Origin: Nannobrachium achirus
Taxonomy: Eukaryota > Chordata > Actinopteri > Myctophiformes > Myctophidae
Assembly: GCA_963921795.1 (NCBI GenBank)
Contig: OY997659.1
Coordinates: forward strand, 27,065,903 to 27,129,902
Direction of reading: 5' to 3'
Length of the DNA stretch: 64,000 bases
Shown here: in pieces, positions 10,871 to 61,850 of the stretch
Numbering within the stretch: the stretch's first letter is position 1
How the letters are laid out: each line of letters starts with the position of its first letter
Notes under the pieces: generated by a model
What the model was told of the DNA's origin: nothing
What the model saw: the letters and a program-made list of their open reading frames with translations, nothing else
Databases searched by the model: none
Position numbers and translations under genes: made by a program

Positions 10871-11233
10871 CAGTGTTTTTCAACCACTGTGCCTGGGGAC
10901 CTTTGGTGTGCCCCTGAGAAGGGTCAGGTGTGCCCCTTGAAATTGCTTGAAAGCCAGTATTGTATTTATCATTTTAAAAAGCACACAACGCCTCGCGGTG
11001 CGAGGCGTTGTGTGCTTGTAGATCTGCTGTTTTCACTACTGTTGTGCAACAGCCTTGATGAATGATGAAGCAGGGCTTTACTTTGCGAAGAAACGTACAA
11101 ATTTGAAACTTGAAAATACAAGGTTTCTTCCCAACAGTGACGATATTTACACCCCCGTATATTATGTTGGTGTGCCCATGGATTCTTGGGACATGAAAAG
11201 TGTGCCCATGCAGAAAAAAGGTTGAGAAACCAG
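10871..11233. mobile_element. hAT-like non-autonomous element containing a half hairpin module
   Basis: The ends are CAGTGTTTTTCAACC and GGTTGAGAAACCAG, imperfect TIRs. Flanks agacagaa and agaccaga are similar but not exact. The interior holds an inverted, partly deleted copy of the palindrome element found whole at 48009-48275 and 60130-60385. Confidence 0.65.
10981..11037. repeat. Hairpin module copy 1 (one outer arm missing)
   Basis: The inner stem gcacacaacgcctcgc/ggt/gcgaggcgttgtgtgc is perfect. The right outer arm ttgtagatctgctgttttca is present and the left outer arm is absent. Confidence 0.85.
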
Positions 11234-11239
11234 AGACCA

Positions 11240-14200
11240 GAAGGCTGATAAGAATGCCCGGCTGAAGCTTGAGCCATGTGCTATCAACACACACACTCAC
11301 CAACAATAACAACTACACAGACGGCATTTGATCTCTCATCCTCTTATATTAATATCAAAGCCGTGGCATGTTTTGGCATTGAGTGCAGACAGCTGCATGT
11401 CGTGTTGGGGGTGTCCAGTGAATTTATAGTCTGCTTGTAATCTTCTTTAGTCCTCCTCTATTAAAATGTCACGGCATGGCACAGCAACTTTCCTAATACT
11501 GCAGTTTTTTTTCATGTCTGGAGCAAGGCTTCAGACTACATATCAATTCTGAATGTAATACCTTCAGTACAAAGCTTCACTGCTTCATAGAAGCCTGTTC
11601 TTGTTCCTGGTGGTTTAATGCCAGAAACCTGAGCCCATGTGATCCACTCTCACTATTATTTGTGTTTAACCTATTTAAACCTATTTAAAACATCTTACAT
11701 AGCTTTGCTCTTACGTCATTGCCATATTGCTATGCCATACTGTATGGAACATTAAATGTGTAAAATATTTAAATTGATCGATTGATTGATTGAATACTTT
11801 ATTAACAAGAGTGTTAACATTACAGATAGTGAAGTCAATAGTTATGTTAAAATGGTAACACACAAAAAAAAACAGGTGCTTGTTTCCATTGCGGTCCATT
11901 GTAACGGTTGTACTGCACATTCAAATAAAAGCGATTTAATGTTAAAAAAGGAAAATGTCTGCACACTGGTAATGCTGAAAAAGCTCTGCTGTATTTTTAT
12001 TGCGTTGTCAATGTTTCGATCAATTCAGATCTTCATCAGTACATACACAGCATATGATGAGGATCATATCAAGAACCAAATGCATTTTTTAATTTAATTT
12101 GCATGATTCCCTCCCCAGAACGACTTGAGTATTGCACTGGACCAAACAGGAAATCCGCTTTAACGCCTTGATAATACAGACTGTTAAGCTGTAAAGAGGA
12201 CAGCATCGTAACACAAATTAGAAATGAGAGCAGGATAATAATTCAGTCACTCAACTCCAGAATCACACATGCCCTCATTCACCTCAGTCACCTGACTGTT
12301 CTAATCAGAACCAGAACATTTGCTCTAGTTTCTTTCTCACCTACACTCTCTCCTTCTCCACTTTCCTGCAGTCTGTCTCAATAGAGAGACAGAGGAAACA
12401 AACACACATGCACGCATGCTCAGTGCGCGTGCGTGTGTGCGTGCATGCGCACGCACGCACGCACGCACCAAAGTCATTGCACTTTCCAATCTTTCTTAAA
12501 ATAAGAACTGCAAATTATCGCTAAGGCTTCATCCACTGCTTCTGCCAGGTCATTAGCACCGTTTACTCAGCTGTTTTTAATGGCAAGTTTCTCCAGTTTT
12601 CAATTTAAGCCTTGAAAACAGATGATGCTTTGAATTTCTCGAGGAACTTTTGATTTTGTGGCTGTTTCGGGTCTTTATTGATTTTCTTTAATTGTAAAAG
12701 GATAAGGATAACCACAGTTTCTGGAGGGCAGCTACTTCATTATGAGTCTTGCATCATCCATTCTGAATAGAGGAAACCCCTCCAAAATGTGGTTGCTTTG
12801 TTGAGTTTGCTGGAGCGTGAAATGATGTTGAGATGAGGTGGAGTTCATTTTATGTGTGTGATTTGGCTGAGAGGACGTTTGGGGTGAACAAAAGAGATGA
12901 AAAGGACGTGGACATCCTACTGTATAATCTAGTCATTTCATGGAAGTAGGGTTACACAAACAGCAGCATTGTGTAAAATTAACCTTTGCTGTGCGTTTCG
13001 TTAACATTTAGTCTACTTCAGGAAACGTAAAATCAGGATTCAGGAATAGGGTAACCTATATATTACTGAAACACAAATTAACTTACAACTAAGCTATGGT
13101 AATAATATGTTATATTGTAACCCAACAACAGTAATGCATAAAACACATACAAAGTGGTTAGATTCAAGGCTCACTATAGCGTTGGGGCTATGGCAATGGT
13201 GCTCACTCAGTCCATCTGTCAGTCCATATGTCTGTCCAGCACTTTGATCTCACACAACATATAATTTATGTATATATCAATAAAGTGTTAAGTGTAACAT
13301 ACATCCACATTCTGTAAGATAACCAGGATTTTCATGTAGCTTATCATTAAGCTACTTAGCTTAATATTAAAGTATAGAGGGCATGCACGTGACATCATCA
13401 TACCCGGATGTTACGCCTACAGTACTGAGTGGCAAAAAAACAGTCAGTAGGAGTCAGCTGGAGTCAGTAGGAGTGAGGTGGAGTCAGGAGGAGTTTCCCA
13501 ATGAGCGCTTCCAAACTCCAATGCTTCATGCTGCTTTAATGTTTACCACTGAGTCTAAATGAGTGGCTTATGATACATTACATACCCTCTCTTATATATT
13601 AGTTTTACTCTAACTTTAATCTAACATAGTGGGGAAATCCGGGTGTCATAGTGGCTTTGTTGTGGCGCCAGTTTCACCTTCTCTTCTCTTTTTTACCGTG
13701 TGGCACTTTTTGTCTCCACCAGACTATGTTTTCATCCCTGTCTATCTGTCCGCCGTCCGTCCGTTTGTCTGCCTGTGGACAGTTAATCTCTGGCACCGTC
13801 GGCCCCATAAACTGTGCGCACACACACCCTGGAGGTCAGACCTTTGCCCCAAATGTTTCACATCGGCCAGTTGAGTTAGGAACACTCACGTCAAAGTGGA
13901 TTTAACCATTTATTGCAACAAACGGAATACTGTTTAACTTGGCGTTATAGCCTCTGCTGTTCATTGAATTTGCAAAAATCCCACCTGTGCTTGATTGCAG
14001 CGTCCTATTGCTGGGAAACATGCACATTCCCACTAAGCCAAGGATTTTCCATCCCACATTTTTCAAATCTCCTCATGGTGGCCCTACAACAGCCCACTTC
14101 ACGTTTTGGCCGATAACTCTTGAACCGTAGGTCATACAATCAACCTATTTTTCCCTGGCTAGGCAAGCAGGCCTGGCAGAGACCTGTGCTCAGAGGAACA

Positions 14201-14600
14201 CACCTTTCTAGTTCACTATGGAACTACTGAATCTGTCTTTTATGGCAGACACTGTGTACAGTACAACTTCTTACCAGCTGGTAAAAATAGCACCTCTACA
14301 TTTTATCAACTCTCTGCAGACAGAATGAGATGCTTAACACTAATGAGCTTTCATTAAAGGTCTTAATTATTTTGGCTCTACGTATATGGGGAAATATAAA
14401 CTTTAAACGCTGTGTACCGGTATAGCTTGAGCCAATATTTTAGAATTTACCATTCACACTGTCCATTTTGCCCTTATTCGTCTTATCGCATGGCCTTATA
14501 TTGGTTCATTTGGCCTTTTTGAGGAGTATATGTTGTCAGTTTTGGTTTGAAGACATTTTCGGCTAAGATGTGGAATTAAAAGAATGTCTTGAAAGGGTCT
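11240..14600. other. Non-coding DNA, mostly unique
   Basis: It includes a (GATT)n-linked LINE-type tail near 11778-11815 (attgattgattgaatacttt), a piece at 11940-12060 related to 50660-50740 (atgtttcga...cttcatcag), an alternating purine-pyrimidine run at 12408-12470, and a short imperfect repeat cagtaggagtcagctggagt at about 13440-13492. No gene is seen. Confidence 0.4.
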
Positions 14601-14714
14601 GTCCCACATTCTTCAAGACGCTAGTATCATTGTCACTTGAGATACCTTTTCATGCACTGCATGGACTGGACTTAAACTCTTTGACAAGAGTAGCCACTTG
14701 TGATATAATCTTAA

Positions 14715-60996: not shown

Positions 60997-61224
60997 GTAG
61001 GCCTCCCCCCTCCTATGTCCATCTAACCAGCATGCAGCAATCTTCTCTGCCTTGTATCTATACAGAACTATAGGGCTAATGGGGTATAGTTAGCACAAAC
61101 ATACTGTACACACAAACACACATACACACACAACCCCACTCCTTCATGCACAGCACACATATTTCACTGCCTGCAATGTTGCTACCTGCTGTGTTGTTTT
61201 TTTGCACGTGACATTAAAACATCT

Positions 61225-61295
61225 TGAAGACATACGCACACACTCACACACTCGCGCACACACGCGCGCACAGCCACACACACACACACACACAG
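61225..61295. repeat. (CA)-rich region
   Basis: An interrupted CA/CG run, cacacactcgcgcacacacg and onwards. Confidence 0.8.
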
Positions 61296-61626
61296 GAGCA
61301 GCCCGTTCACCTGTCAGCGAGGAGCATGACTTTGCAGGGCTGCTCTGAGCCAAGAAGAGATGCACTCAGGCGTTATGAAAGCTGTTATAAGTGCACACAA
61401 CGTATGCTAGGAGAGGCCCAGGATCTCAGAAGCACAAAGTGTTCCTTCATCTTTTTTTTTTTTTTTGTAACTCAGCGAGCGTACAAATTAATCACCAGAG
61501 GAGGTGGAAGAATAAGTGCTCAGATACTTTGCCCGTTTTGATCCTAAAATCCCATTATCGAACGAGCAGACATTGCCGCAGAGACAATAATACACACAGC
61601 AATGAGGTATTCTTCTCCCCACCATA

Positions 61627-61850
61627 CGCTGTATATCGTCTCTGTCAGGCAGAAACCTTGTATCTCCAAGCTTCCAAGATTTGTATGTTTTTTAGTAAAT
61701 TAAAGCCCTACTTCATCATTCAAAAGTGTCAAACAAAAGTAGTGAAAATAGCAGATCTACAAGCACACAACGCCTCGTAGATCAGCTTTTTTAACTATTT
61801 TAAATCGTGTTTAAAATAACAAAAGATTTTGGACATCGGCAGGGTATGTA
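61627..61850. mobile_element. K element with collapsed hairpin
   Basis: Left half as in the other K copies. The hairpin (61738-61795) has lost its apical part: acaacgcctcgtagatcagc joins the left inner stem directly to the right outer arm. Confidence 0.7.

Follow-up and report, generated by a model that had tools for sequence, protein, structure and literature searches.

A short palindromic hairpin carried inside small DNA transposons with different ends and target sites in Nannobrachium achirus

Results

Hairpin copies and their hosts in the window

We analysed a 64-kb stretch of Nannobrachium achirus DNA (contig OY997659.1, positions 27,065,903 to 27,129,902; hereafter the window), in which one hairpin recurs inside small DNA transposons of different types. 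The original prediction had counted about 20 recurrences. A covariance model and an iterated nucleotide hidden Markov model (HMM) were both started from eight window copies. The HMM found 20 places in the window, identical to the 20 predicted and at the same coordinates; eight of them match by construction. On the reversed sequence, used as a control, it found 0. The covariance model, which had been proposed as a check, recovered 13 distinct window places at E ≤ 0.01. A 21-mer from the outer arm had 26 window matches at three mismatches or fewer, where shuffled sequences predict 0. Eight of the 20 copies are full-length. The other 12 are partial, and some are mere remnants (those at 21262, 25020 and 34621 among them).

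The best copy lies at 60222-60302, in the centre of an element of the K family (60141-60386, + strand). It had been predicted to have two perfect 39-bp arms, and its fold indeed consists of 39 perfect base pairs and a 3-nt loop (z −18.9). A second complete hairpin, at 48116-48196 by the covariance model, is the single central hairpin of a K element at 48014-48272 (+ strand) with terminal inverted repeats (TIRs) beginning TCGTC and with TA on both sides. Two partial K elements carry hairpins with deletions, one at 61633-61823 (+ strand, hairpin at 61738) and one at 10979-11146 (− strand, hairpin at 10981).

The names hAT and Tc1/mariner are given here on the type of ends and of target duplication only. 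A hAT-like TAGGGCTGTCAC element at 18905-19671 (+ strand) is flanked by the duplication TTAGGGAC (8/8) and contains a complete hairpin at 19370-19450 (covariance model). A remnant at 24365-24400 belongs to another copy of this hAT, since 24415-24533 is homologous to 19013-18902. The remnant at 34620-34680 has a flank, GGAGCGGT..CACCGCTCA, that by eye is like that of the 19370 copy. The F1 family (CAGTGGTGG/TACTTTTA element) has a complete hairpin at 17170-17248, partial ones at 18280-18330 (adjoining a TTAACCACTT end at 18271) and 45650-45700, and one without its tip at 58187-58232. The 8-bp duplication of F1 is known from a copy with a collapsed hairpin (CAGTGGTG; 49938-50323, + strand), in which the duplication is GACACACT (8/8) and the hairpin is reduced to TTTGTAGATCT. 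The agttttagtc family F5, whose ends CAGTGTTGATTTTGTC are known from locus L134 (L-numbered loci, such as L123 and L186, are places in the same genome outside the window), has a complete hairpin at 23829-23906 and one without its tip at 31723-31777. In F6 a partial hairpin at 27527-27575 lies within an element at 27288-27763 that has CAGTGGTTCTCAACC-type ends and no visible duplication. The only cleanly duplicated F6-like copy is a 140-bp deletion derivative at 32589-32728 (+ strand, duplication CTTTAAAC, 8/8), with by eye a hairpin-tip remnant at most.

Two copies lie in ggacccc elements: a diverged hairpin at 22100-22170, one arm of which extends to TTAACTACTTTAACC (22191-22205), and one without its tip at 25300-25355. 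Further remnants are at 25017-25060 and at 21262-21300; the flank of the latter weakly resembles 46701-46835. The hosts do differ, as had been predicted: the TA-flanked K element at 48014 and the elements with 8/8 duplications at 18905 and 49938 are different transposons. The predicted host layout needs one correction. The hairpins at 46796-46868 (B) and 47146-47218 (A) share a single TTAA-to-TTAA element at 46738-47261 (+ strand, boundaries by eye).

Host types across the genome

The hosts comprise eight hAT-like end types with 8-bp duplications and short TIRs, the TA-type K and TTAA-type elements. Seven of the eight hAT-like end types hold a recognisable hairpin and one a collapsed remnant. 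Three elements each, with duplications of 8/8, 8/8 and 7/8, were found for the TAGGGCTGTCAC hAT (that at 18905-19671 in the window; L136, 8872-9275 and 2219-2612) and for the CAGGGGCGTCACA hAT. The latter has two hairpins in L123 (8249-8758) and L143 (3998-4499), and one hairpin with the remnant of a second, by eye, in L130 (414-867). The X hAT, with ends CAGGGGTCTTCAAC, is represented by three elements (8/8, 7/8 and 7/8; L148, L150 and L153). Single elements were found for F5 (8/8; L134, 4030-4514), F7 (7/8; L122, 1685-2054), F8 (8/8; L135, 7623-7902) and Y (8/8; L140, 5227-5605). K conforms to Tc1/mariner-like elements in having TIRs and a TA duplication, and its four elements with TIRs are all flanked by TA (window 48014-48272, L132, L127 and L130). 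Elements without the hairpin also occur. One with CAGTGGTTCTCAA ends, an 8/8 duplication and a different interior lies at L138 (7403-7720), and 8 of 26 loose matches to the K end have no hairpin within 500 bases.

A scan for ends and duplications around 124 hairpin copies and 124 control places gave 12 copies (11 elements) with the 8-bp type against 2 controls, and 6 copies with TTAA ends against 1 control; both types are thus above chance. The TTAA carriers share with piggyBac elements a TTAA duplication, present at both ends of the carrier and single in one copy each of two hosts. The piggyBac terminal motif is CC[C/T]T, according to the accessible part of the source (PMC2872659), and Kolobok elements have terminal RR beside TTAA (PMC6004289). 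Neither was found in the carriers, whose TTAA is followed by CCAC or by CCCA and which start with CC. We therefore do not place them in a superfamily.

Structure and abundance of the hairpin

The hairpin is about 76 bases long and has a conserved arm block (TGAAAATAGCAGATCTACAAGCTCACA); its tip varies more, and the loop measures about 3 nt. Conservation reaches 90% or more at 17 of the 25 left-arm positions and at 15 of the 25 right-arm positions in a set of 33 near-full copies. Watson-Crick pairs fill 81.9% of the stem cells in 31 distinct near-full copies, against 75.9% when partners are shuffled (standard deviation 0.7, highest 78.3). Stem pairs 23/53, 28/48, 32/44, 33/43 and 35/41 each occur in two complementary versions, which by eye track the family. 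An oriented mismatch at stem pair 11/65 is present in 12 of the 31 copies, from several families, and because it is common to them it suggests that the hairpin itself has one origin. Within K, F1, F2 and F5 the hairpin occupies one homologous position; the CAGGGGCGTCAC hAT has two hairpins.

No Rfam family matched the window at its gathering score; the best score, for one copy, was 56.9 bits where 98 are required. On this ground we rejected the reading of the hairpin as a known RNA gene. At L135 (771-943) the palindrome around the hairpin at 833 reaches about 170 bp, and its flanks are near-identical on both sides.

The hairpin is far more abundant than the roughly 20 copies first noted. We took a sample of 180,580 non-N bases from 19 other contigs, in the form of 20 arbitrarily placed 10-kb stretches at round-number coordinates; long runs of N occur in four of these. 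The sample held 72 copies, or 0.40 per kb (bootstrap 95% interval 0.28-0.53), amounting to 2.2% of the sampled bases. Most of these copies are truncated; a length of 68 nt or more is reached by 23 of them. Extrapolated to the 1.66-Gb genome, the sample gives about 6.6 × 10^5 copies (95% interval 4.7 × 10^5 to 8.7 × 10^5). Querying the genome for similarity to the entire hairpin produced no match, probably since very common words are skipped. Pattern searches worked: an exact 27-base arm pattern matched the genome 22,696 times and, read backwards, 0 times. From this count 2.5 exact matches are expected in the sample, and 2 were seen. Some local duplications carry the hairpin nearly unchanged (L144, 4154-4535 and 7344-7709, about 3.2 kb apart; L129, 7340 and 8746, about 1.4 kb apart). 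A 22-mer of the hairpin had 0 matches in contigs of prokaryote genomes and a 20-mer had 0 in viral contigs. Matches of a 15-mer to at least 120 viral stretches, with one match each among the matches listed, were taken as chance. In the literature one arm string turned up in a single listed paper, an algal study on an unrelated subject.

Hairpin carriers inside other transposons

Hairpin-bearing miniature inverted-repeat transposable elements (MITEs) were found inside three of the hosts. The TTAACCACTTGAACC element (PB) is about 160-210 bp long, has the hairpin at its centre and is inserted at TTAA. In two X elements it runs from TTAA to TTAA (L148, 394-579 inside 237-896; L153, 392-600 inside 247-708), and it also occurs outside X with flanks of its own (L140, 3217-3404). 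At L123 the CAGGGGCGTCAC hAT (8249-8758) encloses a two-hairpin element of the TTAACCCATTTAG type; one TTAA end of this inner element can still be recognised by eye. K is nested in Y (L140, 5227-5605). Three other X copies (L149, L155 and L162) contain a tandem repeat from the GGACCCC region with a spacing of about 31 bases.

Arms like those of PB were recognised by eye in 12 of the first 20 exact hairpin matches on one chromosome, the near-identical neighbours L146 and L147 being among the 12. The outward end AAGTGGTTAA occurs exactly 6 times in 203 flanks of hairpins, against 0 and 0 in two controls. With one mismatch the counts are 14 against 3 and 2.

Empty sites of the hosts were searched genome-wide with patterns consisting only of the two host flanks joined. 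The X pattern, with a single TTAA at the joint and up to two mismatches, had two matches. L186 is an X element with a single TTAA and without the hairpin, and L185 retains the carrier with one end altered. The pattern for the CAGGGGCGTCAC hAT allowed 0-8 open bases between the flanks; its sole match has exactly TTAA there and is a short copy without the hairpin. The sole match of the Y pattern has TA at the joint (L188, truncated at one end). On the reverse strand of L188 half a hairpin arm lies just past the Y end, which would fit an insertion of Y into another element that bears the hairpin.

Other features of the window

A near-perfect palindrome of 355 bp at 57713-58067 (arms of 177 nt, 98% complementary, 1 nt apart) adjoins the 58.2-kb hairpin, apparently within its F1 copy. 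Another, at 31608-31696 (44-nt arms, 98%), is 27 bases from an F5 hairpin. A sequence resembling a tRNA-derived short interspersed nuclear element (SINE) by eye, at 33200-33449, ends at a remnant of the hairpin outer arm whose flank matches 27.4 kb. A repeat of about 0.8 kb is present three times (14712-15534, 34913-35754 and 35755-36472), with two copies in tandem and 91-97% identity. The short open exons at 47483-47596 and 47691-47858 resemble, on our own reading, a gene related to those for oxysterol-binding proteins. The first has a sub-threshold Pfam match to PH_8 (E 0.0095) and the second no Pfam match.

Discussion

Probable nested insertion of hairpin carriers

The host families differ in their ends and target sites, carriers of the hairpin lie inside X, Y and the CAGGGGCGTCAC hAT, and one empty site exists for each of these three. 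The single-copy empty sites (TTAA in both X and the CAGGGGCGTCAC hAT; TA, in a less clean case, in Y) support nested insertion. We consider it probable, at roughly 65%, that small DNA transposons carry the hairpin inside them as a non-autonomous passenger, and that it has spread by the nesting of its carriers and their amplification. Two kinds of MITE with TTAA target sites (PB and the two-hairpin TTAACCCATTTAG type) and the TA-type K would have the hairpin as their core. These carriers would insert into other transposons, mostly hAT-like MITEs, and the machinery of the outer element would then amplify the composite. Internal deletions would trim the carrier ends and leave old families with little beyond the hairpin. 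K, the TAGGGCTGTCAC hAT, F5, F6 and F8 may go back to such nesting at an earlier date, with erosion down to the hairpin, or template switching at the hairpin may have brought it in. If an active master copy used one of its arms as the template for the other, this could account for the symmetric ends specific to each family and for the double changes in the stem. The original prediction had also offered a module exchanged between families. There is evidence for carriage across families. What moves, in the cases where this is seen, is a larger MITE, at TTAA or TA, with the hairpin at its centre.

Several observations weigh against this interpretation. The empty sites are known from one copy apiece, and any of them might have arisen by a rare deletion between two short repeats. 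In the CAGGGGCGTCAC hAT the empty copy lacks an 8-bp duplication (3/8 by eye). The Y site is the least clean of the three, because L188 is truncated, because K is preceded by an extra TA in the filled copies L140 and L184, and because the right-hand junction of Y was recognised only afterwards, from L182 and not from L140. The joint expected for a further K composite had 0 matches, as did that of a hairpin-less TAGGGCTGTCAC hAT. TTAA arms are absent round the hairpin in the copies seen of K, the TAGGGCTGTCAC hAT, F5, F6 and F8. With two mismatches allowed, AAGTGGTTAA is found 48 times by hairpins against 43 and 19 in the controls, and the excess over one control is gone. TA-type ends were not enriched in the scan for ends and duplications (4 hairpin copies against 7 controls, 124 each), so that the scan adds nothing for this type; the case for K comes from ends common to many copies, from the four TA-flanked elements and from the Y joint. 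Finally, nesting covers some hosts and not the first sharing of the hairpin among K, the TTAA carriers and the remaining hATs.

Alternative origins

It is possible, although we think it unlikely, that the hairpin was exchanged without insertion: the palindrome would be a hotspot of template switching, copied between families by gap repair after excision. The families without carrier arms could be explained in this way, as could chimeras such as that at L137 (1482-1900), where by eye the left end of X is joined to the interior and right end of F8. The edges of the palindrome point in the same direction. They extend past the shared arm in a manner specific to the family, with CACTA in K, CACAAT in F6, CAAA in F1, CAGCA in F5 and GGC in PB, and at outward positions 3-7 and 9 the continuation beats all 200 shuffles (at position 8 and beyond position 9 it does not). 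This test could use 57 of the 124 copies, those of one family are not independent, and the ggacccc group showed no such continuation in the same analysis. Moreover, no exchange was caught in the act, and nested insertion accounts for the three empty-site cases.

A second alternative is that the hairpin is kept for a function, as an enhancer of transposition or replication or as a small-RNA structure, and that the families bearing it out-compete others. Its presence in about ten kinds of element is in keeping with this, as are the conserved arm positions and the two-sided changes of stem pairs between families. K provides a further argument, since its hairpin diverges less than its flanks (6.0% against 11.4%, at 16 of 18 places, two of the 18 being elements read a second time). 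Singletons behave likewise, with 34 in 1001 hairpin positions (3.4%) and 138 in 2534 flank positions (5.4%) of 16 copies (p 0.012; 0.03 without CpG). Both tests are biased towards the hairpin, however, as poorly aligned columns are lost and K has subfamilies. The stem of K shows 32 changes in one arm against 2 complementary changes in both, which indicates that dead copies are not maintained; taken with the family-specific symmetry of the ends, it therefore seems that stem symmetry is retained by family-founding lineages and not by copies after landing. The failure of any Rfam family to reach its threshold in the window also speaks against a function of this kind, which we regard as improbable. 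The same doubt applies to a bolder version, in which the hairpin would be a symbiotic module that raises the success of any MITE capturing it, whatever the transposase; some ten captures would then have taken place, each master lineage restoring the symmetry of the module anew.

The original prediction had offered a mobile foldback that targets other elements. Foldback elements have long inverted arms that fold on themselves, as the hairpin does, but at the edge of the hairpin we saw neither a constant target duplication nor a conserved terminal end. Across families we saw no direct repeat of fixed length at this edge; it is the family-specific part, and in most aligned families the inverted repeat continues there. 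Junctions of K without a hairpin matched 47 times, against 24,085 exact matches of K with a hairpin arm, two patterns that are not strictly comparable. A single TAG is kept in 17 of the 47 (GTAG), and filled copies have TAG on both sides, which counts in favour of a foldback. The others comprise 11 that keep only GT, 3 CTAG, 3 GTAGTAG and 13 of other kinds. Twenty of the 47 were fetched. Several of these lie in one composite host and by eye differ in their junctions (GTAG, CTAG and GT); the same composite also exists filled (L132, 8760). Because several junction types occur within one host, we rejected the hairpin-less K copies as empty sites, and later deletion of the palindrome between short direct repeats fits them. 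Two F1 copies that seemed to lack the hairpin among the candidates listed (at 50.1 kb in the window and in L141) keep a remnant, and in the F1 copy at 28.1 kb the entire middle is gone. With the hairpin-less TAGGGCTGTCAC joint also missing, a mobile foldback is very unlikely.

Descent of all hosts from one hairpin-bearing ancestor, with the ends exchanged later, would suit the shared mismatch at stem pair 11/65, the flanks that F1, the ggacccc group and PB have in part in common (the TTAACCACTT half) and the match of window F1, K and ggacccc copies for some tens of bases past the hairpin, but it is hardly credible given at least three kinds of ends and target sites (8-bp, TA and TTAA), 19 of the 21 window flank pairs scoring at least 20 being within a family, and the carrier-less copies of X, Y and the CAGGGGCGTCAC hAT, one for each of these three host families.

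Known systems and significance

The only close precedent found in a literature search, which had most subscription journals outside its scope, is the CMITEs of the coral Acropora. In the accessible part of their description, several piggyBac-type MITE families with different ends share one conserved interior of 75 bases, have TTAA duplications and are known from one allele with and one without the element; CMITE-IN is a new element created by the insertion of a CMITE (PMC2872659). All CMITE families keep the CC[C/T]T end motif in that account, and about 1,600 copies are estimated (PMC2872659). The hairpin resembles the CMITEs, as they appear there, in that its arm block is common to families with differing ends, so that the interior is better conserved than the ends. 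It differs from them in three respects. CMITEs belong to one TTAA superfamily, whereas the hosts of the hairpin include those with 8-bp and TA target sites; the module here is a near-perfect palindrome, which the accessible text does not say of the CMITE interior (PMC2872659); and the hairpin is by estimate about 400 times more abundant than the copy number given in that text. The central domains of SINEs (V, CORE, Deu, Nin, Ceph and others) are likewise conserved across families, as far as the accessible part of the source goes (PMC8010984). The hairpin is similar to the domains as presented there, being one body in otherwise different families of small non-autonomous elements. On the same account SINEs are retrotransposons, whereas the hosts of the hairpin are DNA transposons and the shared domain is a hairpin.

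In scale the situation differs from that of nested MITEs, since the same small core is found here in many families. One MITE may lie inside another and be copied along with it. The interior of MITEs is usually regarded as filler that varies between families. In this 1.66-Gb genome a single palindrome of about 76 bases accounts for about 2% of the sampled bases and occurs across transposons that differ in both their ends and their target sites. Repeat annotation by internal similarity would merge such unrelated transposons, and the hairpin is a warning in this respect. It also offers a natural experiment on whether the interior of a MITE affects its success, and it suggests a route by which nested MITEs become new families.

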